Shown one piece after another: positions 16,462 through 64,000 of a stretch of DNA of 64,000 nt; position 1 is the stretch's first letter; every line of letters begins with the position of its first letter. The translations under genes and the position numbers were made by a program. Origin of the DNA: Serendipita indica DSM 11827. Its lineage: Eukaryota > Basidiomycota > Agaricomycetes > Sebacinales > Serendipitaceae. A model generated the notes under the pieces. It was not told the origin of the DNA and made no database searches. It worked only from the letters and a program-made list of their open reading frames with translations. Location of the stretch: contig CAJVGD010000017.1 of the NCBI GenBank assembly GCA_910890315.1, positions 403,464 through 467,463 on the forward strand, written 5' to 3'.

Positions 16462-17851
16462 TTACCGCTCAGATGCCGTTGTTTTTTGCTCTGTCGTGAT
16501 CCCGAGTTTGAAAGATGCTGTAGTTCCAGGGATTTTGCAGTGCCAAAGACCATGCCCACTGTCCACGGCAAAGCCATTATCGGTGGCTATTTGGAAACGG
16601 TTTTGCAAGACGACGTCCTGGGCCATCTCTTCGGCAGGAAGCTGAGTTTGTGATTCCTCAGGAGAGAGACACATGGCCTCGATCTGAATCGATGAAGAGT
16701 CGAGAGTGCTGGGGACGAGAGAAGGTGACTGAACACTGGTAAGGAACGCCACGGTTTGTCCGACTCGGGGAGCTGTTTCAGCGTCTAGCAGCAGTGCCCC
16801 TCGAGAAGGTGAGCCAGCGGATACTGAGAGTACTCGTTGAATCTGGAAATTCTGAGCGAGGAGCGGTATCAAGGGACTATATCCTACCTCTTGCCCATCG
16901 AGTACGCCTAGATAGACCTTCTCCGGCTCTGCAGTTTCAACAGGCCTTGTGCGAGAAGTAACAATCTTCATCAGAACATCTGCCGCAGGTTGCTCATTGA
17001 TCGTGTATATCAAGTTTGAGGATGCACTGAACACAATTAGCCCGTTGTCTGGACCCTGTCAATGAAGGTTACCTTGTAATCGTATAGTCTTCTCCTATCT
17101 TGAAAAGATTCGAGAGATTGACTTTGATTTCAGGCCTTTCGTGGTTGCAGAGCGCTACTCCAAAGGCTCCAGAGGAGTGAAAGGCTCCTTGTGATAAAAG
17201 GTGAATGGACGACCAGTGACAAAAGGGGTTGACGAAGCAGTAACACCCATCTGATCCACAGGTGAGTAAAATAAAGGATTTATATGCACTTCTTGCCTTG
17301 CTTATGCGGGGTAGACGATGGTCAAGAGCAGCAGATAACCCTTCGGCCATATCGTCGGTGAAGTAGAATAACGAGGATACACTGCAGAGCATTAGTAGAA
17401 ATTGAATGCCTGGATGCACTCACTTGGCCTGAATATCATGCAAATCGGGAGGGAGCGTTGGTATCGGTTCGTTTGAAGTTCCGTCATCCCATTTTGGAGC
17501 CATGAAGGGCACAAAAGGCCGTTTTTCATCGTTTATCTGCTCTTTCGAGTACCAGCGGCCGACCTGCGCCTTTTGCCTTCCAGGAATGCTGGAATGCCAG
17601 ATGCGATGGTGGACCGACGACGGAATGTTCAGGAGAGATAGAGACATATCATGTCGAGGAGATGGACACTCAGAGATGCATCCTACATTTGTTGAAGGCA
17701 GGCGTCGAATTTCGTCAAAGAGCTGTTGCAAATTTGATTGCGGTGCATGGACAGCGAATACAGTAGTGGATCCTTTTGATATTGAGAGATTCCTCAGGTA
17801 GTTTGTGATGAATTTCTCTGAGCGCGATAAGATGGTCAAAGCTGAAGTCAT
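16462..17851 (-). CDS. FIST-domain protein (FBXO22-like sensory domain)
   Basis: Three exons (17424-17851, 17073-17381, 16462-17026) join in frame to 433 residues. The start was placed at the ATG of MTSALTILSRS; an in-frame ATG at 17890 would overlap the neighbouring gene. N-terminal features: TTVFAVHAP and VGCISEC, as in the FIST_N region. The middle has FILLTCGSDG, then a stretch HLLSQGAFHSSGAFGVAL that matches the conserved FIST segment (..G..HS.GAVGVAL). The C-terminal part (KVYLGVLDGQE, then PLLAQNFQIQRVLSV) fits FIST_C. FIST domains are intracellular sensory domains thought to bind small ligands such as amino acids; in fungi the role is unknown. The start lies only 11 bp beyond the stop of the cysteine-rich gene at 17863, so its promoter must overlap that gene. 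Confidence 0.6.
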
Positions 17852-17862
17852 GTTCAGTTGAT

Positions 17863-18305
17863 TCAGCATCCGTCGCAGGCTTTGAGACATTGACAGAAAC
17901 AGTCACATAGTCTCGCACATTGCCCCATACACTCGCAACATGCGCCAAATAATTCTGCACACCGGCAACTGCAGCAAAAGTCCCAGCATCGGTCGAGTCC
18001 AGTGTTGCACTTTTGACACCACCCTGAGTTTTCCATTTGTGTCCCCAGCGACGAGGGATCAAATCTCCGGGATTGCGGCTCAGAAGCCGAGGGGTCGTAG
18101 TATCCTCCATCCCACGCCACTCGTCCAATATCTTGTTTGGAAGCATGGAGTGTCTATTGCTCAGGGTGAGTCCTGGCATCGATGTTTAGACGCCACTTAC
18201 CGAATTCTCTTGGTTTACTGTGCTCGACAAGAAGGGGCCATTGATAGCAGCCTCATTCGCCACACGAGCGGGTGCTTCAGGTTCACTGATTCTGTTCTGT
18301 GCCAT
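17863..18305 (-). CDS. Small cysteine-rich protein, tandem family member A
   Basis: Two exons (18201-18305, 18153-17863) with a 47-nt intron give 131 residues. I do not recognise the family. Exon 1 (35 residues) is acidic and polar with ISEPEAPA and NEAAINGPFLSS; there is no signal peptide. Exon 2 begins TLHASKQDIGR, then WDGGYYDPSASEP, PSSLGTQMENSGWCQ, and ends in a tail with 17 cysteines in the last 53 residues, in CC, CxC and CxxC spacings (CCSCRC, CCEC, CDCFCQC). Two homologues follow upstream on the same strand with the same intron position and phase. The Cys clusters could be S-acylated for membrane attachment or could bind metal; both are guesses. Confidence 0.7.
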
Positions 18306-18361
18306 CTTTGAACAAGGATGCAGAAGAGCGTTCGGTTCCAGATTGGCCTTTATCCAAACTC

Positions 18362-18427
18362 GCCCGCGCTAAACGCGCTAAACGCACTAAATGCGCTAAA
18401 TGCGCTAAATGCGCTAAATGCGCTAAT
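18362..18427. repeat. Nine-base minisatellite
   Basis: About seven tandem units of GCGCTAAAT with variants (GCGCTAAAC, GCACTAAAT) sit between cysteine-rich genes A and B, just upstream of the start of A at 18305. They are probably in its promoter or leader. The plus-strand reading AKCAKCAKC is taken as chance. Confidence 0.8.
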
Positions 18428-18526
18428 TACACCGCACGTCCAGATAGAGAATTGTCTTGGCGGACCTTTCAAGACCTGAATCCATCTCTTTCGCCATTTA
18501 CCGAGTTTCGAGGCAGACATTATATG

Positions 18527-18951
18527 TTAACTATCGTTGGTCAAATCACAGATTCCCGTAAACAACTCGTACAAATCTATCGCACATTCACAACATGTGC
18601 AATAGTCTGCGAGATCTTGGGCGCTGCAACAGACGCCCGAACCCGGGTTGAGGTAGCGATCAATCGCCTGACAACACTCTGAATTTTCTATTCGCTGCAT
18701 GAGTGACGGTGGGTCTCGTCTCTGCGACGACGGCTCAGCGGTCGCGGGCTCAAAGTATCCTCCATTCCAAGACCGTTCTGCCTCCTGCCTAGGAGTATCA
18801 AGGGTCTGTAGCTAATTGTGAGTACAGATTCGGATGCATAGGCGCCTCTTACATAGGTCTTTGGGTTCACATTATTAGACAAGAGAGGGTCTGATTCGTT
18901 CATTGACGGGCTGGTAGATACTCCAGGTTCATTGGTACTATTGTTTGACAT
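18527..18951 (-). CDS. Small cysteine-rich protein, tandem family member B
   Basis: Two exons (18853-18951, 18805-18527) with a phase-0 intron in the same place as in member A; 125 residues. Exon 1 MSNNSTNEPGVS...NESDPLLSNNV is polar. Exon 2 has TLDTPRQEAER, WNGGYFEPATAEPSSQ, PPSLMQRIENSECCQ and a shorter Cys tail (9 Cys, with CC and CTCCEC). Against member A the shared core is TL..(S/P)(K/R)Q...R.W.GGY..P...EP.S.R...PSL...(M/I)ENS.. , while the tails have diverged but keep their Cys richness. No signal peptide; probably intracellular. Function unknown. Confidence 0.7.
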
Positions 18952-19156
18952 CCTTGTGGGTAAGTATTCGGGGTCCAAGTCCAGTGTATACTCCGACGCG
19001 CTTATCGCCGACGCTCTTCTCCGGTGGCACCCTGACTCCTCAAAAAGCCATAACACGACCCGCTTTGAAGATTTTTTCCATCGGGTATCCCGCATGCTTC
19101 ACTAAATTTGATCCTTTCTGCCATTTCTGGGTATAAGCCACGTTCAATCAGGACAC

Positions 19157-19580
19157 CTAATTACATCCCTGAAAGATACCGGTACAGATCTCGCCGCAAA
19201 TTATCATCCACTGGCAACAATAGCACACCTCATCCATACATCGCTTGCTGCAACACCAATACTCCGAGAATCGATCGTACCCATTCTCAAACTTTTGGTA
19301 CCACTCTAAATTCTCCATTCGCTGCTTGAGTGATGAGGGTTCCCCTCCCTGGGATCGTGCCAGTGGCTCAGCTGCGGACGGGTCAAAATATCCTCCATCC
19401 CATGCCCGCTCCGTATCTTGTTTAGGAGTTTCAAGGGTCTAATTATTATGTGAGCATAGATTGTGAGGCTTTATAAGCCCCTTACAACGCCGTCGGGTCC
19501 ATTTTGCCAGATAAAAGACGCTCATTGACACCCAAACCATCAGCAGGTATTTCGGGTTCCTCAATCTTGTTCTCTGACAT
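19157..19580 (-). pseudogene. Small cysteine-rich family member C, apparently frameshifted at the splice junction
   Basis: Exon 1 starts at ATG 19580 (MSENKIEEPEIPADG, then NERLLSGKMDP) and is closest to members A and B in the same region. Exon 2 starts after ..ATTAG at about 19440 and reads TLETPKQDTERAWDGGYFDPSAAEP, PSSLKQRMENLEWYQ and a tail with 9 Cys (WCCSKRC, CYCC), ending TAG at 19157. Aligned with member B, the end of exon 1 lacks one base. The GTAAG donor therefore falls in phase 2 while exon 2 needs phase 0, and no alternative GT/AG pair I tried restores the frame. It may be a young pseudogene, an assembly error or an unusual splice. Confidence 0.55.
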
Positions 19581-24013: not shown

Positions 24014-24992
24014 CCGTCCGACGCTGTATCCTCGAATGGAGCGAGTGAAGCTCTACTCTCTGTAGCAATAACATGGTCGATTCGACTGACGTTTGCAAAC
24101 ACCAAAACTACCGAAAGGGTCGAGCCTACATTCCTTCTCATTCCGAGACACGGCTGCTGTGGCTACTGAAACTTGCGGGCAGATGAAGTGTGTTGTGTAG
24201 AGACTCCTACCCTGCGACGGGTTAACCTTGACCTCAACGTAGCCCCAGACGTAGCCAAAAGGATTAGATATGGTCATTCATCGAGGCGATTAGAACACTC
24301 GATGTGGCACAGGCAAGTTGGCCGAGCTGGTGCAATTCTATCCAATATTTCGACAGACTCTGTCAACGAGGCTGGGTCATAGGCTAACTTCATGCTCTTA
24401 TCTTTAACCACACTGATCCTGGACGATGTTCTCGAGCGCTGGGGCACTTGGACGCGCCAAAGTATGGGTAGGGAATCGTGGAATCGTCCGAACCACAGGC
24501 TCTAGACTGCTAGAATGATAAGATTCAATATTCTCAGTGTCATCCCTGATGATATTCATCTCCACTCGTGGCATTCGGTGATTCTGAAGGTGCTTGGCAA
24601 GCATTATCAGAGCAACGGCACCTCTGGGGAGGCCTGTAGGTCTGGAAACTGGGACGTCGTTTATAGATAAATCTACCGATTACTCGATCGTGTATTTGTA
24701 AGTCTCCTCGACTACCGTCTCTTCATTCGTCGCTAGGGCCGGTATATATTGGCTCTTGAATACTCCGACGAACACACTTGAACCTTGTAGTGCCTCATGC
24801 GTGTTGACAATGCTAAATCCTCATTTAGTGCACACCATTACCAGCGACGGGTCAGAATAGTAATTCAAATCGTTAATCAGCCGCTGTTAACCAGCAGGCA
24901 CGTGGATCACTCTCCACAGATTACGGATAGATAAGGCTCTGAAAGATATATGAATGTTCTCCGGCGTAGCTGAGGCCTTCCTCATCATCATC
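24014..24992. other. Intergenic, left end of the M-NLR tandem duplication
   Basis: From about 24290 onward the sequence is alignable with 27150-27950. Shared blocks include GTGGCAC.GGCAAGTTG, ACTTCATGCTCTTATCTT and the 160 bp directly before the membrane genes (TTAACCAGCAGGCACGTGGAT, AGATAAGGCTCTGAAAGATATAT). This is a conserved promoter plus older flank. A TATA-like AGATATAT lies at about 24943. Confidence 0.6.
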
Positions 24993-26416
24993 ATGGCTCT
25001 CGCACTTGCCGTCTACTCCCTGTCAGCCCGCGCTCCTCAAGGTAGCACGTCGAACGCGACAGAATGCCTTCCATCGTGCGCAAAACAGTACAGGAGTCTT
25101 CCTGGAATCGTTCTGAGCTGTCTCACCACAATATTTTTGTGCATTTGGGTGTCACTCCATCTCAACCTTCCCGAGCCTGTGGAGACTAGAGGCTTGGGCC
25201 GCTTCAAGCGATTCAAAGTCTGGCTCAGGTCGTTTATTAGATGCACCGTTATTCCTATCTTCGTGACACTTGTGTTCCCAGAATGGGTTCTGGGTATTGC
25301 GGTTCTCCAGTTCGCCAAAGCCACTCAGCTGGCTAAGGATATTGGTATAGTGCAGAGTTAGCGCTTCATTATTTGACACTGATCTGTCCATCCCAAGGTG
25401 GTACTCGCCAACAAGGATTCTTCATCTTAATGGGAGGCTTCCATCTCTTCAAACACAGCCAAGGACCGTCAAGGAATCAGATGGATGCCCAAAAGGAAGG
25501 AGGAGAGGAAAATCACCCGTTGGTTCATATATCAGCAGCAGAGGAGGGAGATGGTCGACCTGAACTCGAGGAAGATATTGGAGAACCTGTCCATCCTCTC
25601 GATGAGTTTGACGTCTGTCGGCTTATTGATGCGGGCAAACTCCGCTTCCCTACCCTTGTCGAGCTGCAGGACAAGTGCAAGAGTGACGGACTCGCAAAGC
25701 TCCTGGTCGTAGTCCAAACGCTCTGGTTCATTGCTCAATGCACCGCACGGAAACTCAGCAGCCTCCCACTCACTGAGCTCGAGGTCATTACACTCGGCTA
25801 TACTCTACTCACGGTGTCAATGTATGCCGCATGGTGGGACAAGCCCTACAGGGTGACGTTCCCAATACGTGTGTATGCAACACTCCCCGCACGTACAGAA
25901 GAACAAGAAGAGATGAAGCGGAATATGGAGAGGTATCCATTTTGGGACATGGCCTTTGGGTATGTCACAGGCACTCAGGGTGATGCCGTCGACCTGCGGA
26001 GTGTGAGGTGCGTTCCAATGTTTTATTCTGGGTACAGTGAAAATGGAGACAAACCCAGAGATTTCCTTTCGCTAACAACCACAATTGTCGTGGGGACTGT
26101 GTTTGGCGCTGTCCATTTTCTTGCGTGGTCCTCTCCATTTCCGTCCAATCAGATGCAATTTCTGTGGAAATTTGCGACTATCGTCATGACTCTAGCACCA
26201 CCTGCAGCAGTCGCAGTCACCGCTCTTGGTGTAGTAATTACCTTGGTGTCTGAAAATCTGGCGAACGTGATTGCGCAACTCCTTGTGTTTCTACTACCTC
26301 CTCTCTACTTCGTTGGAAGAGGTATAACAATTATTCTCGCATTGGTGACGCTCACATCACTCCCACTCGAGGTGTATCGAGATGTAGAGTGGACCGACTT
26401 CTTCCCCCACATCTAG
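24993..26416 (+). CDS. Multi-pass membrane protein of an uncharacterised Agaricomycete family (M1)
   Basis: Exons 24993-25344 and 25398-26416 give 456 residues. The start was chosen because copies M2 and M3 have their ATG at the same place; here an in-frame ATG at 24954 could add 13 residues and make a better signal peptide. A short lumenal segment with ECLPSCAKQYR precedes span 1 (GIVLSCLTTIFLCIWV). PEWVLGIAVLQFAKA, then HGFF-type QQGFFILMGGFHLF, and a cytosolic part with HPLDEFDVCRLIDAGKLRFP follow. Then come several spans (LLVVVQTLWFIAQC, LEVITLGYTLLTVSMY, TIVVGTVFGAVHFLAW, then three near the C-terminus) and the end YRDVEWTDFFPHI. I recognise the family as common and expanded in mushrooms, but no function is known. 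Its coupling to NLR genes in this window is notable. Confidence 0.8.
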
Positions 26417-26653
26417 ACCCTGCTATTCCTCTTGTCTATACCTTTCTTCGTTGTATATCTTCAATTTTCCAAGGTTTATCGAGATTTTGACCAATACAAG
26501 CAAATACCGCACTGTGTCGATACTGCTCGACCTTTCCTCTTTCTCAATCTAAAATCCCGGGTCTTTTTCAGATCGCAGACTGTCTAAACTTCGGGTCCGA
26601 TGACCGTGTTGTGCGGAACTTCCAGGTGCACTGCTTGGGATCAGCAATTTAGC

Positions 26654-26806
26654 GATGCTGATCCGAAGACAGTTAAAAGGATAGAATTGGTTCGTCGTGA
26701 TCCTCGTCTTCTGAGCATCGTACAACAAGATGGGTCTGGTATACGATTCGATCAACCATAGAGACAACATACAGCCAAGGGATCAGATATCCTAGCTCCT
26801 TATATA
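26654..26806 (+). pseudogene. Remnant of an NLR first exon
   Basis: Aligns base for base, with indels, to the first exon of NLR-2 (29634-29790): GCGATG start context, GATCCTCG.CTTTTGAGCA.CGTACAACAAG, GGTATACGA..CGATCAACC and CAGCC.AGGGATCAGATATCCT.GCTCCT. It contains stops and frameshifts. It ends abruptly at about 26806, with none of the NACHT or WD40 sequence behind it. Confidence 0.75.
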
Positions 26807-27950
26807 TTGGGTATGATGGGCAAGAATTGGGAACAGTTGTCGAGAATGTTGAGAAAGAGTTGATACAAAGACACAGCCTGGTACGGTTCGAGCTCGCGCA
26901 GCTATGGCGGTCAAACCGTGCGTGGTAGAGGACAGATACCCCGACACCACCAAGCGGTTTGCTCCTCGCGGACGAGCGGGATTCCCGAGACTAGACGGTT
27001 AACCCGTAGGTTGCAATATGGGAATCCGAACGGGCCCTACGGCGAATGCCTAAAGCCATCGGAGAACTCACCGCCTACCTTTCTTCCGCCTCTGAGGTAC
27101 TGGTTGCTGTTGTGAACCAGAGACTCACGAAATTTGTGCGCTGATGAAAATCGGGTGTCGAACACTTGGTGTGGCACTGGCAAGTTGACCAAGCTGGCAC
27201 GGCTCCATCCAATATTGACAGATTCCATTAACGAGGCTCGGTCACAGGCCACCTTCATGCTCTTATCTTCCACCAAACTGATCCCGGGTAGTACGAAGTG
27301 TGATGTACAAGATGATTGGTCTACTATGTGTGAGCCCCTTACACGTCGCTGAGCTGGCCGTCATTCTCAAGCTCACTTGAGGACCCGAACGGGCCACAGT
27401 GTTGGTACAGAATATTTCAAACCATCAGGCTCTCTAGACTGCTAGAATGACGAAGTTTGACATTCTCAGTACCGCATTTGGTGATATTCATCTCTCGTGG
27501 CATTCTGCGACTCTGGTGGCACTTGGCGAGCACCATCGGAGCAATGGAGCATCCGGGGACGCTTGTAGGTCTGATAACGGCGACGTCATTCAAGATATAA
27601 CAATTAACCCGCCTTATATCCGCAAGGCTCCTATCCATGCGACATCGTCTCTTTATTCGGCGCGAGGGCCGAAATACATACTCCCTCGTGAATCGTAGGA
27701 ATCGGTTGTATACTCCGCTGAACACATTTGGACATTGCCCTTCCCTTGTAGTGCCTCCTGCGTATTGACAATGCTAAATTCTCATGTGGTGTACGCCCTT
27801 GCGAGCTATCAGAGTGGCAATTCAAATAGTTTATCAGCCACTGTTAACCAGCAGACACGTGGATGCCTCTCTACTGATTGTGGGATAGATAAGGCTCTGA
27901 AAGATATATAAGAATTCTCCGGCCTGGCTGAGGCCTTCCTCATCATCATC
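26807..27950. other. Intergenic between duplication copies
   Basis: The part to about 27130 is unlike either copy and holds no gene I can support (the frame at 26918-27115 looks random). From about 27150 it is the upstream flank of duplication copy 2. A TATA-like GATATATAAG lies at about 27902, some 45 bp before the M2 start. Confidence 0.45.
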
Positions 27951-29790
27951 ATGGCTTTCGCACTTGCCGTCTACTCCCTGTCAGCCCGCGCTCCTCAAGA
28001 TGGCACGTCGAACACGACAGAATGCCTGCCATCGTGCGCGAAACAGTACAGGAGTCTACCTGGGATTGTTCTGAGCTGTCTCACTACAATCTTTTTATGC
28101 ATCTGGGTGGCGCTTCATCTCAACGTTCCCGAGCCCGTGGATACCAGAGGCTTGGACCGCTTCGAGCGATTCAAAGTCTGGCTCATGTCGTTTATTAGAT
28201 GCACCGTGACTCCCATTCTTGTGACCCTAGTGTTCCCTGAATGGGTTTTGGGTATGGCCGTTCTTCAATTCCGTAAGGCCACTCAACTGGCCAAGAAGAT
28301 TGGTATGGTGCACATTTTGTTTCATTAACTTTTATTGACCGGTTCACTGTAAGGTGGCACACGCCAACAAGGATTCTTCATCTTAATGGGTGGCTTTCAT
28401 CTCTTTAAACGAAGCCAGGGGTCTTTAAGGGATCAGATCGAGGCCATACAGAGGGACGGAGAAGAAAACCATCCACTGGTCAAATTATCGGGGGCGGAAG
28501 AGGGAGATGGTCGACTTCGCGATGCGCCAAATAACAAAGCGACCCGCCTACTCGAAGAGGAAGCCGGAGAGCCTGTTCATCCTCTTGATGAATTTGATGT
28601 GTGTCGCCTTATCGACACTGGCAAACTCCACTTCCCTCCCTCTGCCGAGCTACTGGACAGGTGCAAGAGCGACGGACTCGCAAAGTTCCTTGTCATCGTC
28701 CAGACCCTATGGTTCATCGCTCAGTGCATCGCACGGAAAGTCAGCAAACTCCCACTCACCGAGCTTGAGGTCGTTACGCTTGGCTATACTCTACTTACGG
28801 TGGGCATGTACGTTGTCTGGTGGGACAAGCCCTACCGGGTAGCATTCCCTGTGCGTGTGTATGGAACACTCCCTGAGCGTACAGAAGAGCAAGAATGGCT
28901 CATGTTGAAGTCGTCGGACTGGTCTGAGATGGTCGTTCAGTATGCCTCGGGCACTCAGGGTGCGTTTGTCGAGCTCCGGAGTGTGAAACGAATTCCAATG
29001 TTTCACTCTGGGTACATAAAAGGAGAGTGAATATTCGCGAACTCGCCGGCGCGATGACCACAATCATTGTTGGGACATTGTTTGGTGCTGTCCATTTCCT
29101 TGGGTGGTCATCGCCTTTTCCATCCAGTCATATGCAATTTCTCTGGCGATTTGCGACAATTGTCATGACTGCAGTTCCGCCTGCTGCAGTCATACTCACA
29201 CTCATCATGGCATCAATTGAAGTGATCTTCGACCTGGATAACTCGTTCACTTACTCCCTAGTTCTATTACCTCCACTCTACCTCGCTGGAAGAGGTATAA
29301 CCATCGTGCTTGCGTTGGTGACGCTCGCATCACTCCCACTTGAGGCATATCGGGATGTGGAATGGTCTGACTTCTTCCCCCACATCTAGCCCCTTCTATT
29401 CCTCTCATCTCTACCTTTCTTTGTTTCATATCTTCAATGTGTAAAAGTTTGTACATCATCGAGATTTTGCCCAATACAAGCAAATACCGCACTATCCGAT
29501 ACTACTCGGCCATTCCTCTTGCTCAACCTAAAACTCCGGGTCCTTTGTAGATCATAGACTGTCGAAACTTCTGGCCCGATGATAGTCTTGTGCGAAACTT
29601 CCCGCTTCGCCACTTGGAATCTTCCACTTCGCGATGTCGACGCAACGCACAACCAAAAATAGCATAATTTCCAATTCATCGGGATCCTCGACTTTTGAGC
29701 AACGTACAACAAGTAAGAAGGACCAGGTATACGACGCGATCAACCTTGGACTCGACGTGGTCGCAAATACAGCCGAGGGATCAGATATCC
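27150..29790 (+). repeat. Tandem segmental duplication, copy 2 (M2 + NLR-2 start)
   Basis: Counterpart of 24290-26806. The promoter block, both exons and intron position of the membrane gene, the 3' flank and the start of the NLR all align with copy 1. Here the NLR continues as NLR-2. Confidence 0.75.
27951..29389 (+). pseudogene. Second membrane-family copy (M2), frameshifted
   Basis: Exon 1 (27951-28302, 352 nt, identical length and phase to M1 and M3) and exon 2 from 28354 read as in M1 up to IPMFHSGYIKGE, where a TGA stops the frame at 29028-29030. The family continues in another frame from about 29033 (AMTTIIVGTLFGAVHF...) to the usual end SDFFPHI at 29389. Against M3 the segment between SGYIK and TTVIVG is two bases longer, so a 2-base insertion or 1-base deletion explains it; there is no room for an intron. 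As read, the product would stop before the last membrane spans. The remaining frame is clean, so the lesion is recent or an assembly error. Confidence 0.7.
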
Positions 29791-32700
29791 TGGCTCCTCT
29801 GAAAGCCGCTTGCCGGACAACAAAATCGATCCTTGAAGTGGTACAGGTAATTTGACGAACCTAGCCGGTTCCATGATCTAATGAATGTGACAGGCGATTG
29901 AGAACAACCGAGAAGAATGGAGCGACCTAACCCGGCGGTTGAAGGAATATATGTCTACACTAGAGGAGCAAATAGCCTTGTTTGAGACCTATTCCCCGGC
30001 GGACAGAGGCGTCAACGAGGCGTTTAGTCGACCGCTCATCCATTACGTCGAGTACGTGGATAGTGAAAATATATTAAAATAGGCTGAGATATACAGATTC
30101 CTCGAAACTATGCACGATACGGTTGTCGGTCTTAAGGAAAAACGCAGACGCAGCAGACTCGGCCTCCTCAAAGCGTTTAGCAGAGTAAAGATCGATACCG
30201 AGGAGATTCGTAAACTCAACCGAGAAATTGATGACAAACACAAGCAGTTCATGGTGCGTGTTTCATCAACAATGTCCTAATTCTAACTTTGGACGTAGGC
30301 AGCATTGAACTTGTTTACCGCATTACGTGTTCAAGCCATCGAATGGAACAGTAAGCTGAATTCCTTTTCGGTACAATTGCTTAGCATTTCAAGTTGCGAT
30401 ACTCCAGCTGCCAGCGGTGGCATTCGTTGCAGCCTCAGTTCACACTACCTGTTTGCAAGGAACACGTCGAGCCGTTCTCCAAACAATCTCGGATTGGGCC
30501 GAAGATAAAGTATCGGATAAACCGATATTTTGGCTTTGTGACATAGCTGGTTCTGGCAAATCCACAGTTGCAATGTCGGCAGTGGAGTCATGGACAAGGT
30601 CAGGCCTCCTGGGCGGCCGGTTCTTCTTCTCCATAGCAAGCAGCGAAGGGTCGACCACCGACAAGTTCTGTTCCACCATAGCAAGGGACCTTGTTCATTA
30701 CATCCCGGAGCTCGCGCCGCAGGTCGCTGGAGCCGTGAAACAGAATCCCTCTTTCATGCGAAGCTCTCTTGATGAGCAATTCAATACCCTCGTCAGTAAA
30801 CCCATTCGTCATTGGCAACGGCCTGTCGTTCTTGTCGTCGACGCCCTTGACGAATGCAAATCCCCATCACAGAGAAGAGAGCTGGTCAATACCTTATCTA
30901 AGGCGGTTCAGAATTGCAGAAATCTCAAGGTGTTTATGACGAGCAGGCCAGATCCTATTGTCCAAGCAGTCCTAGGATCGCTCTCGATCAAAGCCAAGTT
31001 GGAGGACCGCCTCCACAATATCAATCATCCTGATAATATCGACGACATCACTATTTATGTCCATCAATCACTAGATGGAATACTGTCCGAGGACAAGAGG
31101 CGGAGACTAGTAGCAAAGGCCAACGGGTTGTTCATCTGGGCGAGCACTGCATGTAGAATGCTCAACAGCGAGACAAGCCTGACCCCTCCTGACATTACGT
31201 TCAATCGTCTCATGTCCATGGACCAAGCTGGCGCCATAGACAGTCTGTACAGCCTCGTCTTCGAGCGCATAGACCCCGAGCAGTGCGAGGTGATGTACGA
31301 GATGCTTGGCTTACTGCTCGCTGCCTTCGAGCCGCTCAACGCCGAAGAGCTGGACGACATTCTCCAGCATGCCGGGGTGCCCGGGAGCGCCAAGGCGTTG
31401 GTGCGGAATCTCGGGAGCGTGCTTACCGAGGTCGGAACTGGAAACCTAATTCAGTTCCGGCATCCAACCCTTGTTGAATACCTTCGACGCTGCTCCGCTG
31501 TCGATAGCCGCAACAAGGGACACATCAACATGAGCAAGTCGCATGGTCAAGCCGCATCATGGTGTCTCAAATGCTTCAAGTCGCCAACTGAAGGTCTCAG
31601 GTTCAATATATGTCAAATCGAATCATCTTTCTGTCTAAATAGAGAGACTCCAAATCTCGACACCAAAATATCAAAATTCATTTCGAGAAGACTTCGATAT
31701 GCCAGCTCTCACTGGTTGTTCCATGTGACAGAAACTGACAACAACTGGCGATCCACGCTCAAGACCGAGCTTCAATACATCATTCGATTCCCATACGTGC
31801 TATATTGGATGGAAATACTGAGCTTTACCGGAGGTGTGGCACGAGCACTAGCTGGTCTTCGAGCTGTGATGGCCCACAGAGACGTGAGTGGCTTATTCCA
31901 ATTAAAGTTGACCACTTACGCAGCAGGCAGATTGAAGAGGAAACCAGAGGCATTATGAACGAGATCAGGCGGTTCCTAATTGCATTTTCGGTACCAATCC
32001 AGGAGAGCGCCCCACACATCTACATTTCCGCGCTTCCATTTACTCCGACAAGGTCAAAGCTACATATGGTTGGCATAACCAAATATGCTAATACCATTAA
32101 TGTGACACGGGGCCTTGAGAAGTATCCCGGCCTCCCAGAGCTTTTGGTGGCCACGAAAGTCCCGTCAGTGCCATCGCGTTCTCGCTAGACGGATCGAAAA
32201 TGGCCTCTGGTTCATTCGATAACACGGTTCGGCTATGGGATACAGAAACAGGACAGCCGTTAGGAGAGCCACTTAGGGGTCACGAAGGATCGGTCACGGC
32301 TATTGCCTTTTCGTCGGACGGCTCACGAATCGTCTCGGGCTCGGATGATAGGACGATTAGAGTATGGGATGCAAACGGTGGGCAGTCATTAGGAGAGCCA
32401 CTCCAAGGCCATGAAGGCTTGGTAAGGGCTGTCGCATTTTCGCTAGACGGCTTGCGAATACTCTCTGGCTCGGACGACAATACCATTAGACTGTGGGATA
32501 CAGCTACTGGTGAGCCATTGGGAGAGATACTTCGGGGTGGCGGTGACTGGGTTCAGGCCATCGCGTTCTCGCCGGACGGTTCACGGATCATCTGTGGCTT
32601 GGACAACAACACAATTCAAATGTGGAATGCAGCCACTGGAGAACCGTTGGGAGAGCCACTCAGAGGTCACAAAGGATTGATCTTTGCTGTCGCATTTTCC

Positions 32701-34278: not shown

Positions 34279-34623
34279 CTATTTGTATGATCGATATTTA
34301 TAGTATTGTGTGGTATTGGAAGCTAATTCACTCTCCACTAGAATCACATCGAGTTAACTTCATCCTCATTTGTATTGACTAAATTCTCCCCTGCTACCTC
34401 GCGTTAATCGCCGTTTGCTCTTTGAGTGAATAAAGACGAAAGGTATGATTATCCGAATGGGCAACATACTTAGGCTTTCAGGAGCGGAGGTACCAGCGGA
34501 TTGGCACGGAGTTTGTTTCCAACCAGCACGGTCCGCTGGACATCTGACTACCGAGTATAGAATATATAAAGTTCTTTAAAATGCGCAAGAGCGCCGTTAC
34601 TTACTCCTTCTCTCCGTCTCGTC
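34279..34623. other. Intergenic between NLR-2 and M3
   Basis: Short spacer. A TATA-like AGAATATATAAAG at about 34558-34570 lies some 55 bp before the M3 start. No gene. Confidence 0.5.
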
Positions 34624-36061
34624 ATGGCTCTCGCCGTCGCCGTTTACTCCCTGTCGACCCATGCTGCTCAAGACATTGCGCCGAATATGACGGAATGTCT
34701 TCCATCTTGCGCTAGACAGTACAGAAGTCTTTCTGGGATTGTTCTGAGCTGTCTCACTACAATCTTTTTATGCATCTGGGTGTCGCTCCATCTCAATGTT
34801 CCCGAGCCTGTGGACACCAGGGGATTGGGCCGACTCAAGCGATTCAAAGTCTGGTTCAGGTCGTTTATTAGATGCACCGTTGTTCCTATCTTCGTGACAC
34901 TGGTGTTCCCAGAATGGGTTCTGGGTATTGCAGTTCTCCAGTTCGCCAAAGCCACTCAACTGGCTAAGAAGATCGGTATGCTGCAGGATAAAGTCTGATT
35001 ATTAGATAATGACTAGTGCGTTGATAGGCGGGACTCGCCAACAAGGATTCTTTATCATAATGGGTGGCTTTCATCTGTTTAGACGACACCCGGGGTCTTC
35101 AAAAAATCCAATCAGCACTATAATACAGGGCGAAGAAGAAGCACACCCACTGGTCAATATATCGGAGACTGAAGGCGGTAAGGCTGACAATGCGCCGAAT
35201 AGCAAGGCAATCCGTCTACTCGAAGAGGAGATTGGAGAGCCTGTTCATCCTCTCGATGAATTTGATATCTGTCGGCTTATCGACGCCGGTCAACTCCACT
35301 TCCCTCCTTCTGCCGAGCTACAGGACAGGTGCAAAAGCGACGAACTCGCAAAGTTCCTCGTGATAGTCCAAACGCTCTGGTTCATCGTTCAGTGTGTTGC
35401 TCGGAAAGTCAACAAGCTCCCACTTACTGAGCTCGAGGTCATTACGCTCGGTTATACTCTACTCACGGTGTCAATGTACATTGCATGGTGGGACAAGCCC
35501 TACCGGGTGACGTTCCCAATACGTGTGTATGCAACGCTCCCCGGACGTACAAAAGAACAAGAAGAGATAAAGTGGAATATGGAGAGGTATTCATTTCGGG
35601 ACATGGCCTTTGGGTATGCCACAGGCACTCAGGATGATGCCGTCGACCTACGGAGTGTCAGAGAAATTCCCATGTTTTCCTCTGGGTACATAAAGAATAA
35701 AGGTCTCACCGAGTTTGTCGGGATTCTGACCACAGTCATTGTTGGGATGGTCTTTGGTGCTGTCCACTTTCTTGCGTGGTCGTCGCCCTTTCCATCTCAC
35801 CATATGCAGTTCCTCTGGCGATTCGCCACAATTGTGATGACTGCAGTTCCACCTGCTGCAGTTATACTCTTCATGTTTACTGCGGTAATCGAAGGGTGCT
35901 TCTCCCCGGATAAGTCGATCCTTTACTTCCTACTTCTATTGACGCCATTATACTTTGTTGGGAGAGGGATAACGATTGTGCTTGCGCTAGTGACGCTCGC
36001 ATCACTCCCACTCGAGGCATATCGAGACGTTGAGTGGTCCGACTTGTTTCCCCACATCTAG
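34624..36061 (+). CDS. Multi-pass membrane protein, third family copy (M3)
   Basis: Exons 34624-34975 and 35028-36061 give 461 residues, intact. Starts MALAVAVYSLSTHAAQ, with ECLPSCARQYRS before span 1. The shared landmarks are FPEWVLGIAVLQFAKATQLAKK, QQGFFIIMGGFHLF, HPLDEFDICRLIDAGQLHFPP, WWDKPYRVTFPIRVYATLPGRT, TTVIVGMVFGAVHFLAW and the end VEWSDLFPHI. The acidic insert after the first exon varies in length between copies (M1 is shorter). Exon-1 length (352 nt) and intron phase are the same in all three copies. It follows NLR-2 directly, so the order here is M1, NLR remnant, M2, NLR-2, M3. Confidence 0.82.
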
Positions 36062-36171
36062 ATCTTGTTACAGATACTACTTTGTACGATTATGTAATAT
36101 TCTAGTGTGAACGGGGCTAATTCATTCTCCACTCGAAATCACGTTCGTTGGACTCCGCCATTCCGTGGGCG

Positions 36172-52549: not shown

Positions 52550-52768
52550 GTCGTGTACTTTGTGCACTTTAGTGGTCAACGGTGACGCTTTCAAATGCAC
52601 CAGTCCACGCCAGAGTGGGACGAGTCCAAAGTCCGGCCTTAGCAGTGGCGTCGGTCGGAACGGCTAGGGCAGCATTTGGATATTATTGTTTGGAGACATG
52701 TTTATGATTTGGATGCTTGTGTATTTCGCATAGTGGTAAACGGCTTTTGATCTCCACTCTATGACAGC

Positions 52769-55700
52769 AACAAGATCGCAATCCGGTGATTCACTGCGCC
52801 AGCTCAAGCACATCTCTGATAATGGATACACTGTGAATATAGTTGGATCGTTTTTCTCGACCCAAAACCAGAACTGGCTTGAGATCTCTTCGAATGCGAT
52901 CATCTCGTGTCCTAAATGGATGTGAATAGAGCTCTCAGCAGCTAAAGGGCGAGATGACCGCTAGAATACCGAGAGCTGAGCATGGTGTGCCAGAGCCTGG
53001 CGCACAAACCATCTTATCCCCTTCCACGCTCAGCTCAGGTCAAGCCCCTACAATCTCATACACACAAAGAAATCATTCAAGTCACGTTGACAATGCTCGC
53101 TTCATACCAACTCTGTAACACGCTCGAAACCCTCAGCATCGCACTCAAGCACCTTTCCACAGCCAAAACCGTCTACCTTGACTGCGAGGGACAGGACCTC
53201 GGAGACCAAGGTGGCATTCTTTCCATCTTGAGTCTCGGGTGCGTGACGTCGACTTCCGAGGTCAAGAATTCGGCGACGCTCAGCATCTTCCTTATCGACG
53301 TGCCTGCGTTCCAGACATACACCCACCAAGCCAATCCTTCTCCTCTTGTACCAGTATTCGCGATCCTGACCAGCAAAGAGGTCCTCAAGGTCGGGTTTGA
53401 CCTGCGCATGGACGCGTCCGAGTTGCGTCACGGACACGATGTCGTGATCACGCATGTCCTGGATCTTCAGATTGTCGACTTGATGTGTCGCGACAAGAGC
53501 GAAGAGGCGGTTTTGCAGAGGTTGGCTGGATACTTGGCGCCTCGAGAGGTGCTTCGAAACCGAGAAATCTACAAGCATGTCCTGAGGCTGAGTGGACTCG
53601 ACAAGGCGCTCATAGATCAAGGACAGTCAGTGCCGCGCAAGCCCAGTGAGTCTGCCTCGTCGATTATCTGTGAATTTACGCTGAGATGCGATAGAATTCG
53701 ATCATTCCAAGTGGATGCATCGCCCTCTTGACGAGGATAATCTCTTATACGCCGCAGAGGACGTCTCTAAAATTCAAGTCCTTTACGAACTCCTCGTTCG
53801 CAACCCGCTCGTCAACGTCGAGTTGGCAATCCAGCAGAGCGAGGCTTACATCCAGTCACATGCTTCTGCGCGCCCAGATCGCACGAACAAGTACCTCAGC
53901 CATGGATTGCTGCCACTCGCAATCCTAGAGGGATCTACGACGCTGTCTGCCTCGGATAGCAAAGTATGCATGGGATGTAAGAGGTCTCTACAGAAAGCAT
54001 ACTTTGAGACAAATCAGCAGGCTATTGGAGGGGGGAGCTTGTGCTTCGTGTGCCATGCCGTCGACCAGCATACACTCGAGGCTCAGAGGAATCCTCCACC
54101 TTCTCGTTTGTACTAGTTGTGATACATTGCAGAGCTATTGAATGTTATGCCTTGACAAACTGCGACTATACTGGCCCACCTTTGGCTTATCAGAGGACGT
54201 TTATCCAACGACATTCACCGGCTGGGTACTTCGCTCCTTCCCTACAACCATGCATCTCCACCGTGCCATTCTAACACCTTGAACAAAGAGTAGCGTCTTT
54301 ACTGGCCACAAGCGCCGAACTAATTGAGGAAAGCAAGCTTACTGATTTTGGTCTCCGACTTCATCCAGCCTGAGGAAACTTTATGATGTCTCTCTTTCAG
54401 AAGATATTCAAGAAAACTAAAGACAGTAATGAGTTGCAAAATGCAAATGCCTCTACAACACCGACGAGTCTAGTTGAAGCCTCCACGAGCATCGCAGCAT
54501 CGATTGCCGTACCAGCAAACATGGATGCTACTGCTCCTGGAACAGGTCAGATGGAGAGGCCAAAAACTCCATCTGATGCCCAAATAAACGTACAATCCCA
54601 AACTCAGCAAGACGCTGACCGGTCGACCCGAGGCTCCAAGACGGACAAATGGCTTTCCCGAGCGGCTTTAGTACTTGATTTGACCAAGAGTGCCGCTGAC
54701 GCAGGCGGTCTCGCGCCATTGAAAGGAGCATGTGAAGGCATGGTCACTCTCCTGGGATCCATTCAGGTAATTCTGCAAATCTGTCGTGATTATGCATGCT
54801 CATGAAGTTCAAGGCAGTCAAAGATAACCAGTCCGCCTGGTCCGAGCTCCTACGGACGGTCCAGGAGCATAAGACGGCACTTCAACGGCAGCTCGACCAG
54901 CTGGGTATCAAAGACATACTCGAAGAGTGTGAAAAGTCTATTAGCGGTCCGGTCATGGATTATACAACGTGGGTTTATCAATTCCTCCTTCGATGGAAAC
55001 TCATTCGCACAGCACCCTCAAGGAGTTGGTCGCCGATATCTGCGTAGATTCGGGACTCAAGGAATCCGAGATCGACGGAGGTATCACCTTGAAGATACTG
55101 GCTCAACGTATAGGCACTACAAGACTGGAGGCAGACATCATCACTACGTACCAGCGACGATTGACAGATGCTAAAAGCGGACTGATGGTAGATTTCTCAT
55201 CTTGAGACGGAATTGACTCACTCATTCTGCGCAGCAAGCTCTAACGCTCTATATTACCATCTCGGTGAAAGCGACGGCGGAGAGGGATATCTTGAAAGAC
55301 CTCCGGTCTAAACCGCGCCAACGTCCACCAGAGTGCCAACCGGGAACACGCGTCGAGATACTGGCCAAATGTGAAGCCTGGTCAAAAGACCTGGATGCAC
55401 CGAACATCCTTTGGATCAAAGCCGCGCCAGGAGCAGGCAAGTCGGCCATCGCATCGACATTAGTGACTACATTAGGTATCAAAAAAACGCGCCTAGGAGC
55501 GACCTTCTTCTTCAATCGCCAGGAAACAGCGGCTGTCACTGCGAGCACGGTGTGGCAAGGTATCGCTTACGATCTAGCACGACACCCTACCATTCGTAAA
55601 CAGCTCGCAGACAAGATGAATAAGGAGGAGATTGACCTGGCAACTCCCAATATCAATACCATCTTTGATCAGTTGATCGGAGAGCCATTGTCTAAAATCG

Positions 55701-56470
55701 GCACGGTATCCGGGGATCAATCACCTATAGTTGTCCTCGACGCATTGGATGAGTGTGGTGGACTGGAGGGTGTCCGGTCGACAGAATTTCGCAACCTCAT
55801 TCGTACGCTCGCGGCGTGGTCTGATCTCCCGTCCAGTTGCAAGCTGATTGTGACCAGTCGCGAAGAGGCCGTGATAGCAAGGATCTTTACTGGCCCTAGA
55901 ACACCATATACGATCGATTTGCTTATCGGAGAAGAGACGATCAATCAATCGACGAAAGATATTCAAGCATTCCTGAGCCAGGAGCTTGGGGAAATCACCA
56001 AAGAGTACTCTTCTTTACCCGTAGGATGGCCTGGAGTAGCCACTATCGAAACACTCGCGACCAAAGCCGGTGGGCTATTCATCTGGGCGTCAACAGCGGT
56101 CGAGTATATCCGCCGTGGTCCTCCAAAGGAGAATTTGGAGGAGATGATTCATGCCGATATCACTATGGGTATGAGCGCACTTTACACCAAAGTTATCGAC
56201 ACGGCTTTTCGAGACGCACCGAGCAAAATCATTCAAGAATCTCAGATGGTTCTTGGTACCATTGTTGTCGCCAGAGAGATCTTGGACATCCGGACAATAG
56301 CAGAGCTCCTCGCAATTGACTTGTCGAGGGTCGAGTACATATGCAACGCTCTACGGCCCGTATTAGAAATTAGGAAAGGCGCGCGCTTTCGCCACCAGTC
56401 GTTTGTGGACTTCCTATTAAACCAGCAAGCAACAGGTTCGGCACTCCAGATTGACACGATCAACTGTAAT
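52769..56470 (+). repeat. Tandem duplication of the exonuclease + NLR module, copy 1
   Basis: From the breakpoint AGCAACAAGATC at about 52769 the sequence matches 60297 onward at a near-constant offset of about 7.53 kb: upstream flank, exonuclease gene, spacer and NLR exons. The match continues at least to the right edge of the window (equivalent position about 56470). Left of the breakpoint the two flanks are unrelated. Confidence 0.85.
53093..54116 (+). CDS. 3'-5' exonuclease (RNase D/DEDD-like) with C-terminal Cys motif
   Basis: Exons 53093-53645 and 53695-54116 give 324 residues. The start MLASYQLCNTLETL was preferred over an in-frame ATG at 52982 because it begins at the domain. Active-site motifs: YLDCEGQDLG (Asp-x-Glu), VLKVGFDLRMDASEL (second Asp region), LDLQIVDLM, KALIDQG, then FDHSKWMHRPLDEDNLLYAAEDV, rebuilt across the intron and carrying the last Tyr/Asp pair. 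The C-terminal 100 residues include CMGCKRSLQ and CFVCHAVDQ, two CxxC pairs that could bind zinc, which is unusual for RNase D-type domains. It probably trims or degrades RNA or DNA ends. It heads the duplicated module with NLR-3 downstream on the same strand. Confidence 0.85.
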
Positions 56471-60185: not shown

Positions 60186-60317
60186 ATGTCCGAAAAGGAA
60201 AAAGAGAGTAAGCCAGAGATCGCTTCGGCGACAGAGGCAGAGGCCACTCGCGTCAACAGCAGAGCATCAAATCGTCCGGCAGAAGAAGACCTGAGCAACA
60301 AGATCCCAATCCGGTGA
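60186..60317 (+). pseudogene. Beginning of a gene cut by the duplication breakpoint
   Basis: ATG at 60186 reads MSEKEKESKPEIASATEAE, then ATRVNSRASNRPAEEDLS, a charged, soluble N-terminus. It then runs into the duplicated segment at about 60297 and stops by chance at 60315-60317 after NKIPIR. A good TATA box and leader precede it. It looks like the first exon of a normal gene whose remainder was replaced or displaced when the second exonuclease-NLR module was inserted. Its original product cannot be named. Confidence 0.5.
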
Positions 60318-60620
60318 TTCACTGTGCCAATTCAAGCACATCTCCGATAATTGATACACTGTGAATAGATTTGGATCGTTTTCCTCGACCCACAGCCAGA
60401 ACTGGCTTGAGATCTCTTCGAATGCGATCATCTCGTGTCCTAAGTGGATGTGAATAGAGATCTCAGCTCATAAAAGACGGGATGGCAGCTAAAATACTGA
60501 GAGCTGAGCATGGTGTGTCAGAGCCTGGCGCGCAATCCATCTTATCCCCTTCCACGCTCAGCTCAGGTCAAGTCGCTACAATCTCATACACACAGAGAAA
60601 TCATTCAAGTCACGTCGACA

Positions 60621-61630
60621 ATGCTCGCTTCATACCAACTCTGTAACACGCACGAAACCCTCAGCATCGCACTCAAGTACCTCTCCACAGCCAAAACCGT
60701 CTACTTTGACTGTGAGGAACAGGAGCTCGGAGACTAAGGTGGCATTCTTTCCATCTTGAGTCTCAGGTGCGTGACGTCGACTTCTGAGGTCAAGAATTCG
60801 GCGACGCTCAGCATCTTCCTTATCGACGTGCCTGCGTTCCAGACATACACCCACCAAGCCAATACTTCTCCTCTTGTACCAGTATTCGCGATCCTGACCA
60901 GCAAAGAGGTCCTCAAGGTCGGGTTTGACCTGAGCATGGACGAGTCCGAGTTGCGTCACGGACACGATGTCGTGATCACACATGTCCTGGATCTTCAGAT
61001 TGTCGACTTGATGTGTCGCGACAAGAGCGAAGAGGCGGTTTTGCAGAGGTTGGCTGGATACTTGGCGCCTCGAGAGGTGTTTCGAAACCGAGAAATCTAC
61101 AAGCATGTCCTGAGGCTGAGTGGACTCGACAAGGCGCTCATAGATCAAGGACAGTCAGTGCCGCGCAAGCCCAGTGAGTCTGCCTCGTCGATTATCTGTG
61201 AGCTTACTCTGAGATGCGATAGAATTCGATCATTCCAAGTGGATGGATCGTCCTATTGATGAGGATAGCGTCGTATACGCCGCAGAGGACGTCTCTAAAA
61301 CTCAAGTCCTTTACAAACTCCTCGTTCGCAACCCACTCGTTAATGTCGGTCAAACAGAGCGAGGCTTACATCCGGTTACATGCGGCTGCGCGCCCAGATC
61401 GCACGAACAAGTATCTCAGTCATGGATTGCTGCCACTCGCAATCCTAGAGGGACCCACGACATTGCCCATCTCGGATAGCAAAGTGTGCTTGGGATGCAA
61501 GAGGTCTTTGCAGAAATCATGCTTTCAGACGAATAAGCAGGTTATTGGAGGGGGGAGCTTGTGCTTCGTGTGCCATGCCGTCGACCAGCATACGCTCGAG
61601 GCTCAGAGGAATCCGCCATATTCTCGTTAG
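60621..61630 (+). pseudogene. Exonuclease pseudogene, second module copy
   Basis: Near-identical to 53093-54116 but disabled. A CAA codon of the intact copy is TAA at 60735-60737, shortly after the DCE active-site pair. Between the YAAEDV motif and QSEAY a small replacement shortens the sequence by 8 bases (about 61347-61362), shifting the frame. Other changes are mostly single substitutions. The splice signals and the last CLGCKRSLQ and CFVCHAVDQ motifs are still visible, so decay is recent. Confidence 0.85.
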
Positions 61631-61955
61631 TGCTGACTGTAATACACTGCAGAACCATCCAAATACGACCAGAAATTAACCATATTTGATGTGGAGCAGG
61701 TTTTTGTGAACTGTTTACCGGCTGGTTCCAAAGCGTTCTAGATCTTGGGATTATGCACTGGTCAGCATCCGACCATATCATCAACTGCTGTTTTGTCTTT
61801 ACATTGCAACTAATTATTCTATTCTTAGCATCCCACGTGTTCGCCTCATTGTTACCTACAGGCGCAGACGCCAGACTCGAGGAATGCTGGATTGAGGAAG
61901 GCAAGCTCGAAGGAACTTGGCCTCCCAACCTCATCTAGTCTGAAGAAATACCATC
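61631..61955. other. Intergenic before NLR-4
   Basis: Short spacer, longer and rearranged relative to the equivalent 54117-54382. Probably holds the NLR-4 promoter; no clear TATA box. Confidence 0.45.
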
Positions 61956-64000
61956 ATGTCTCTGTTCCTGAGAGTATTTGGACGATTGAAGAAGCCCAAG
62001 AGTAAAGTCTCAAACGAGGCGCCAATCACTGCAGTACCAAGCCTTGTCCAGGCGGCAACCAGTGTCGCATCATCAATTGCCATGAAACGAGATCCAAACT
62101 TTGATGGCCATAGAACCGATACGATGGAACTGCCAAAAATGGAATCTGCCACCAACGAGGAAATTCAACAGAGCTCTCACCAACTGACCAGTGGATCAAA
62201 GACGGATAAATGGCTCGCTAGAGCAGCCCTAGTGCTTGATTTGACCAAGAGTGCCGCTGATGCGGGTGGTCTTGCGCCATTAAAGGGGGCATGTGAAGGC
62301 ATGGTTACTCTCCTGGGATCTATTCAGGTATGCCTCTAGCACCATGACTGGAATATGTACTCACCGGGATCCAGGCGGTCAAGGATAATCAGTCTTCTTG
62401 GTCCGAGCTCCTGCGGACTGTTCAAGAGCATACGACGGCACTCCAACGGCAACTGGACCAGCTGGGTATCAAAGATATACTCGAAGAGTGCGGAAACTCC
62501 ATAAGCGACCCAGTCAGGGATTACACAACGTGTGTTTATCCATACCTCCTTCAATGCGCACTCATCCACATAGCACACTCAAGGAGTTGATCGCCGATAT
62601 ATGCGCCGATTCAGGCCTCAACGAATCCGAGTTCGACACTGGTCTCACTTTGAAGATACTGGCTCAAAGAATAGGCGTCACAAAACTAGAGGCGGACACC
62701 ATTACTACGTACCAGCGACGATTGACGGATGCCAAAAGCGGGTTAATGGTTAGTTTCTCGCATTCGAGTGAGGTTCATTTTTTCATTTTGCCTAGCATGC
62801 CTTAATGCTCTACGTCACCATCTCTGTGAAAGCCACGGCAGAGAGGGACATCTTGAAAGACCTCTGGTCCAAACCGCGCCAACGCCCACAGGAGTGCCAA
62901 CCCGGAACGCGTGCGGAGATATTGGCCGAGTGTGAAGCTTGGTCAAAGGACTCTAATGCGCCGAATATCCTTTGGATTAAAGCGGCTCCAGGTGCCGGCA
63001 AGTCGGCCATCGCATCTACGCTGGTGGATACGCTCGGTATCAAGAAGAGGCGTCTAGGATCGAGCTTCTTCTTTCGTCGCCAAGAGACGGCTACTGTCAC
63101 TACCAGCGCGATTTGGCAGGGTATCGCGTATGATCTTGCACGACACCCTACCATTCGCCGACATCTTGCAGATAAGATGAGCAAGGAGGAAATCGACTTG
63201 ACGACGCCGAACATCGAGCATGTCTTTCATCAGTTGATTGGAGAGCCACTATCCAAGATTGGCAACGTTTCCGGGGAACAATCACCCATAGTCATCATCG
63301 ATGCGTTGGATGAATGTGGTGGTCTCGAGAGCGTCCGGTCGATGGAGTTTCATAAACTCATGCGCACGCTGACGGCATGGTCATCTCTCCCCTCCAGCTG
63401 CAAGTTGATTGTGACAAGTCGCGAAGAAGCAGAGATAGCAAGGATCTTTACTGGCCCCATATCGTCACATACGATTGATTTACTCGTCGGAGAGGGGACT
63501 GTGAGTCAGTCGACTAAAGATATTCAAGCTTTCTTGAGCGAGGAGCTTGGGGAAACCGCCAGAAGGTACTCTTATTTACCCAGAGGATGGCCTGGAGCAG
63601 CCGTCGTCGAAACATTGGCAATCAAATCCAATGGACTCTTCCTGTGGGCGTCAACGGTGGTGGAATATGTTCGCCGTGGTAATCCAAAGAAGCTCTTGGA
63701 GGAGATAATGCGCACCGAAAGCGTTATGGGCATGAACGCTCTCTACACCAAAGTAGTCGATACAGCCTTGCCCAACGCGGGAGACGAAACTATTCAAGAA
63801 TTACGGATGATCCTTGGCGCAATCATCGTCGCTGGGGAGACTCTGGACATCCGAACGATAGCGGAACTCCTCGAAATCGATCTTTCTACGGTCGAGTACA
63901 TATGCAACGCATTACGGCCGGTGTTGGAAATCAAGGGGGGGACTCGCTTCCGCCACCAGTCATTTGTGGACTTTTTATTGGACCAGAAAGCTAACGATTC
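61956..64000 (+). CDS. NACHT NLR-like protein (NLR-4), 3' end outside the window
   Basis: Exon 1 61956-about 62328 (MSLFLRVFGRLKK, then DKWLARAALVLDLTKSAADA, GLAPLKGACEGMVTLLGSIQ), then exons homologous to those of NLR-3 with the same splice positions (VKDNQSSWSELLRTVQ, TLKELIADIC, TLKILAQRIGVT). The fourth exon from about 62801 is open to the edge: Walker A APGAGKSAIA, Walker B PIVIIDALDECGG, TSREEA, NGLFLWAST, LRPVLEIKGG and FRHQSFVDFLL. About 680 residues are visible. The WD40 part, if present, lies to the right. It is the sister of NLR-3 by tandem duplication, with scattered amino-acid changes through the NACHT domain and no visible lesion. Confidence 0.88.

Follow-up and report, generated by a model that had tools for sequence, protein, structure and literature searches.

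The presence of small cysteine-rich proteins encoded side by side in the genome of Serendipita indica DSM 11827 raises the question of whether they form a genuine gene family and what such proteins might do in the fungus. The window analyzed here is a stretch of 64,000 nucleotides of contig CAJVGD010000017.1, in which three minus-strand genes lie in a tandem row at 17863-19580: A (18305-17863), B (18951-18527), and C (19580-19157). An earlier note had described them as three co-oriented two-exon genes. The shared strand was confirmed and A and B are in frame, but the frame of C is not intact in this assembly. In gene A, exon 1 (18201-18305, 35 codons) joins in frame at a GTAAGT donor, the intron (18154-18200) runs from GTAAGT to CAATAG, and exon 2 with the stop codon (17863-18153) encodes a core followed by a tail with 17 cysteines. 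In gene B, exon 1 (18853-18951, 33 codons) joins in frame at a GTAAGA donor, the intron (18806-18852) runs from GTAAGA to CTACAG, and exon 2 with the stop codon (18527-18805) encodes the core and a tail with 9 cysteines. Gene C has the same layout, with exon 1 at 19486-19580, an intron at 19439-19485 (GTAAGG to AATTAG), and exon 2 with the stop codon at 19157-19438, again encoding the core and a tail with 9 cysteines, and its exon 1 is off by one base relative to exon 2 at the shared donor. Each intron is 47 nt long, has CTCAC ahead of the acceptor, and sits in the same place, in agreement with the shared intron position that had been claimed. The predicted proteins of A and B, both spliced in frame, have 131 and 125 residues, and alternative in-frame joins are also possible for both genes.

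Neither RNA families (at the gathering threshold) nor tRNAs were found in the window. A 9-base tandem array, GCGCTAAAT, in 6.8 copies, occupies 18366-18426, some 60 bases ahead of the gene A start codon; its three-unit pattern, with up to two mismatches allowed, occurs at this one place only in the genome, and CGCG-containing sequence lies upstream of B and C at a comparable distance. A further minus-strand frame (17420-17890, ATG at 17890) overlaps the 3′ end of gene A, and this frame and the next two (to 16465) have no Pfam match.

When acceptors of CAG or TAG and introns of 35-120 nt were considered, the sole in-frame GT..AG join found for C missed half of exon 1. A search of about 5.8 billion proteins with an exon-2 profile made from the three sequences, which gave 20 candidates, found one protein, P0001 (125 aa, E = 3.5e-43), under the tag lgn, which we take to denote the Logan assemblies of sequencing reads. 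P0001 is identical to C at 118 of 122 comparable residues (90 of 93 in exon 2 and 28 of the first 29 at the N-terminus), and the 47-nt intron of C is exactly absent from it, leaving the frame open. Since translation of C from its ATG in the window reaches a stop at the donor, the uninterrupted P0001 is best explained by a spliced RNA, and we infer that C is spliced and translated. A second protein with the tag lgn, P0002, is likewise uninterrupted where introns break the neighboring oxidoreductase gene of the window, and shows zero differences from the exons of that gene on our reading of the alignment. Because both are intron free, the lgn entries of S. indica appear to be derived from transcripts. 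Judged by its sequence, P0001 is an intact form of C and gives a good, though indirect, sign of splicing.

The C of the window is then either misassembled or a truly broken allele. Assembling Nanopore reads tends to introduce one-base length errors. An S. indica assembly (24.7 Mb, 57 contigs) is described as made from Nanopore reads (PMC8385953), and the fungus is described as probably heterokaryotic, with 2.6 SNPs per kb (PMC3192844). P0001 could represent the allele of the other nucleus or come from another strain. If it is the other allele, a density of 2.6 SNPs per kb would make four changed residues unusually many (for 375 nt, the Poisson probability of at least four changes is 0.017).

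In tblastn searches, exon 2 of A matched C with 49% identity (E = 1.3e-16) and B with 35% (E = 2.1e-11), and exon 2 of C matched B with 44% (E = 3.6e-16). On these alignments, A, B, and C are true paralogs, and the proposed tandem family stands as three adjacent homologous minus-strand genes with exon-2 identities of 35-49%. The conserved core that had been proposed was also recovered: exon 2 has 23 invariant columns across A, B, and C, with the consensus W(D/N)GGY(F/Y)(D/E)P...EP...P.SL...EN. Within the core, third codon positions differ most (0.51-0.54, versus 0.07-0.34 at positions 1 and 2). The comparison of dN/dS between members that had been recommended gave NG86 values of 0.19-0.29 for the core and 0.31-0.67 for the tails, with dS near saturation (0.9-1.8); the core values argue for function. 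Tail alignments scored above those of shuffled tails, with 18 (A-B), 0 (A-C), and 0 (B-C) of 1000 shuffles as high. The inclusion of B and C in the family rests on homology, because cysteine content by itself says little.

We found no fourth member in the 24,708,602-base genome with exon 2 of A or of C at E up to 10. The pattern W(D/N)GGY, allowed up to two mismatches, has seven matches in the genome; the three perfect ones all fall within 17863-19580, the other four lie elsewhere with two mismatches each, and the reversed control gave 0. Spliced A yielded four candidates in the protein collection, none at E up to 1, and the search with a core profile suggested earlier, done with the exon-2 profile among about 5.8 billion proteins, gave P0001 alone and no relative beyond it. 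As a control, the neighboring oxidoreductase found 31 proteins in the same collection, including those of S. vermifera and Serendipita sp. 396 and 399 at 68-71% identity and, in alignments spanning less than 60% of the query, those of other named basidiomycetes at 42-56%. The near-identical protein was listed under the tag lgn only, and no annotated S. indica proteome appeared in this control. The control reaches Serendipita, so the collection covers the group. A fast-changing short relative, or one that was never annotated, could be missed by such a search, and the family may be restricted to a few Serendipita, be fast-changing, or be unannotated elsewhere.

Spliced A, spliced B, and exon 2 of C have no family match in Pfam (E up to 1) or NCBIfam. 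Pfam likewise gave no family for P0001 and the three exon 2 sequences at E up to 10, a setting at which the filters drop most matches above about 0.1. Profiles compared with the sequences of solved structures gave only noise, with the AZUL domain of UBE3A as the best match (E = 0.058). The claim that no known family is involved is thus upheld to the level of noise in Pfam, NCBIfam, and solved-structure sequences. The earlier note had also named two outcomes that would count against it, namely, the lack of spliced transcripts and membership in a known family such as PLAC8 or metallothionein; a protein of the spliced form of C exists, and neither PLAC8 nor metallothionein was matched. No literature on the three-gene family was found among the matches listed, and we do not claim that it is unpublished. 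From these comparisons of sequence, the three genes are an orphan family, outside the families searched and of a familiar general kind.

The surroundings of the genes offer an explanation of how the row may have arisen. Receptor genes with WD40 repeats or NACHT/NPHP3_N-type domains lie at 11.7-15.3, 30.4-33.9, and 55.2-58.9 kb and from 62.8 kb of the window. A gene with hydrophobic stretches is present in three copies (24491-26800, 27420-29798, and 34619-36070) of about 75-78% DNA identity and has no Pfam match in the frames tested. A repeat block of 92% identity (52766-54133 and 60294-61653) has a weak, below-cutoff match to a 3′-5′ exonuclease domain, and the receptor-type genes adjoining it are repeated at 78% (54625-56430 and 62186-63991). 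Such a duplication-prone region can explain the origin of A, B, and C without a function shared with the receptors. RSIDELD is a C-terminal motif of Serendipita (Piriformospora) indica proteins. A degenerate pattern of this C-terminal motif has 28 matches in the genome, against 1 in the reversed control, and 14 of the 28 are on one contig, within about 130 kb (G000:C29:1858-128224). Published counts are 25 RSIDELD proteins, or 29 including truncated ORFs, and 99 NACHT-WD ORFs (PMC3192844).

Each protein ends in a cysteine-rich tail. The counts given earlier, 17 cysteines for A (final 53 residues) and 9 apiece for B and C, were confirmed, as was the observation that the tails diverge yet stay cysteine rich on one core. 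Of the open stretches in the window that span 53 codons or more, 631 in number, five have at least 9 cysteines within 53 residues. These are A, B, C, and two more, and only A has 17. The 54-residue tail of A is 31% cysteine and contains six CxC and four CxxC motifs; B has two CxC and P0001 one. A, B, and P0001 each contain a single CC-X10-CC, at positions that align, and this is the sole cysteine arrangement common to all three paralogs. All nine cysteines of C are kept in P0001. Cysteine columns shared between paralogs are no more numerous than in shuffled tails (of 1000 shuffles, 777 for A-B, 398 for A-C, and 712 for B-C had at least as many), and clustering of cysteines on one helix face is not significant (p = 0.11 for A, 0.75 for B, and 0.085 for P0001).

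The absence of a signal peptide, as the earlier note had it, is in agreement with the hydropathy of the first 35 residues, used here in place of a dedicated predictor, which reveals no hydrophobic, signal-peptide-like start in A, B, or P0001 (best 8-residue Kyte-Doolittle means of 1.15, 0.12, and 0.66). Hydrophobins and secreted effectors, which have an N-terminal signal peptide, were set aside on the same data.

Several known systems resemble these proteins in part. The PLAC8 motif CCXXXXCPC is absent from A, B, and P0001, and the Pfam profile did not match, so membership in PLAC8 was rejected. The likeness to PLAC8 lies in small size, cysteine richness, CC pairs, and the lack of a signal-peptide-like start, as in FCR1 of Oidiodendron maius, a fungal member described as conferring cadmium tolerance (PMC6488628). 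CYSTM proteins are described as small, tail-anchored stress proteins whose front part varies and whose C-terminal helix is cysteine rich, bearing a run of three to four consecutive cysteines (PMC10217909). P0001 is similar in having a single hydrophobic stretch, which holds six cysteines and an acidic residue, but A, B, and P0001 have no CCC run and no Pfam match, and a membrane helix is doubtful; CYSTM membership was rejected for want of the triple-cysteine run. The metallothioneins of Neurospora, Cryptococcus, and Tremella are reported to carry a seven-cysteine block, CXCX3CSCPPGXCXC, and no aromatic residues (PMC4755600). The tail of A resembles them in its cysteine content and CxC pairs, but A, B, and C have a long conserved cysteine-free core, the block is absent, and the tails contain 5, 4, and 10 aromatic residues, so this assignment was also rejected. 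The AZUL zinc finger was the sole family raised by the A2 profile among solved structures; its CX4CX4C spacing is present in P0001 but not in A or B, and with a best E of 0.058 and no Pfam match it was not accepted.

The A, B, and C proteins are probably intracellular, where they would bind metals or be anchored to membranes. We tentatively put first a thiol module inside the cell, with soft metals as its ligands and a disordered docking core, while regarding this as possible rather than established. In the AlphaFold2 model of A exon 2, made from four sequences, the core is mostly unstructured and helices are predicted at residues 36-42, 45-61, and 66-93. The disordered core might serve as a docking motif and the tail as a helical thiol module. 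Without a signal-peptide-like start, the tail thiols should stay reduced, and in the reducing cytosol they would bind soft metal ions (Cu, Zn, or Cd). CC-X10-CC would be the common metal site of A, B, and C, the extra cysteines of A (17 in all, with six CxC) would add capacity, and the paralogs would differ in metal buffering or in metal-dependent docking. The aligned CC-X10-CC, the richness of the A tail in CxC and CxxC, and the retention of all C cysteines in P0001 speak for this proposal. On the other hand, no metal-binding family was matched, the aromatic residues are unlike those of classical metallothioneins, cysteine positions other than CC-X10-CC drift, B and C have only nine cysteines, CxC is scarce in B and P0001, and the structure models are weak (mean pLDDT of 62.5 for A exon 2, with the five models as low as 35.8, and of 43.6 for the poor model of P0001).

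Close behind, and nearly as likely as metal binding, is membrane anchoring, which we also hold to be only possible: the tail may be a cysteine-rich helix with multiple S-acylated sites, resting on the cytosolic side of a membrane while the core docks in the cytosol, working by analogy as CYSTM or PLAC8 stress proteins do without belonging to them. Acylation tolerates what is seen in the tails, where the number of cysteines is kept and their positions drift. The usual Kyte-Doolittle borderline for a membrane helix is about 1.6. The best 19-residue mean of P0001, 1.63 in the window VCYCCQWVIICGEICTGIF, is at this borderline (A, 1.02; B, 0.99), and the helical moment of the A tail is strong (29 of 5000 shuffles as high). 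However, the moment is not clearly above shuffles in B (237 of 5000) or C (1150 of 5000), so that an amphipathic helix was rejected as a family trait, and on a biological insertion scale no 19-residue window is favorable (best sums of +8.3, +8.8, and +4.0 for A, B, and P0001). Lysine and arginine minus aspartate and glutamate amount to −1 (A), −8 (B), and −3 (C), the B tail being strongly acidic, and metal binding by such neutral to acidic tails fits better than attachment to an acidic membrane face.

We give little credence to the idea that A, B, and C are a weakly constrained, short-lived set specific to the lineage, in which the C of this nucleus or strain has already broken down. The broken frame of C, the lack of relatives beyond P0001, the higher dN/dS of the tails than of the core with dS near saturation, and the differences between C and P0001 at 4 of 122 residues, compared with none between the oxidoreductase exons and P0002, are consistent with decay. 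However, the core dN/dS is well under 1 in all three pairs, an intact and apparently transcribed C exists as P0001, the four differences in 125 codons may reflect another strain, and Nanopore assemblies are susceptible to one-base length errors. Slightly less credible still is a disulfide-stabilized helical hairpin, such as might follow CHCH-like import into the mitochondrial intermembrane space or form as a redox switch on oxidative stress. The two helices predicted in the A tail (exon-2 residues 45-61 and 66-93) and the CC pairs in all three proteins would suit a hairpin, but the structure model is weak and the twin CX9C of CHCH proteins is not shared (CX9C starts number seven, overlapping, in A, two in P0001, and only one in B), so that CHCH membership was rejected. 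A role as effectors released without a signal peptide to act on the plant is very improbable: the fungus is described as colonizing roots (PMC3192844) and the proteins are small, cysteine rich, and apparently lineage restricted, but leaving the cell is at odds with their N-termini, which show no signal-peptide-like start.

Returning to the metal-binding thiol module, a bolder form of it, which we consider rather unlikely, would make the family a new helical intracellular metal-thiolate class built on CC-X10-CC and confined to Serendipita; the strain's two nuclei would carry unusually divergent forms of gene C. If this were true, metal handling in a root symbiont would rest on a family unlike any known metallothionein. 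The case also bears on short two-exon genes without known domains in general, for which proteins called from assembled reads can serve as a check. The paralogs, with 17, 9, and 9 cysteines on one core, are a natural series for finding what extra cysteines buy. Should the tails prove to be metal binding or acylated, a similar cysteine-rich design would have been reached outside PLAC8, CYSTM, and metallothionein, and such convergence would have taken place in a fungus studied for its benefits as a root symbiont.
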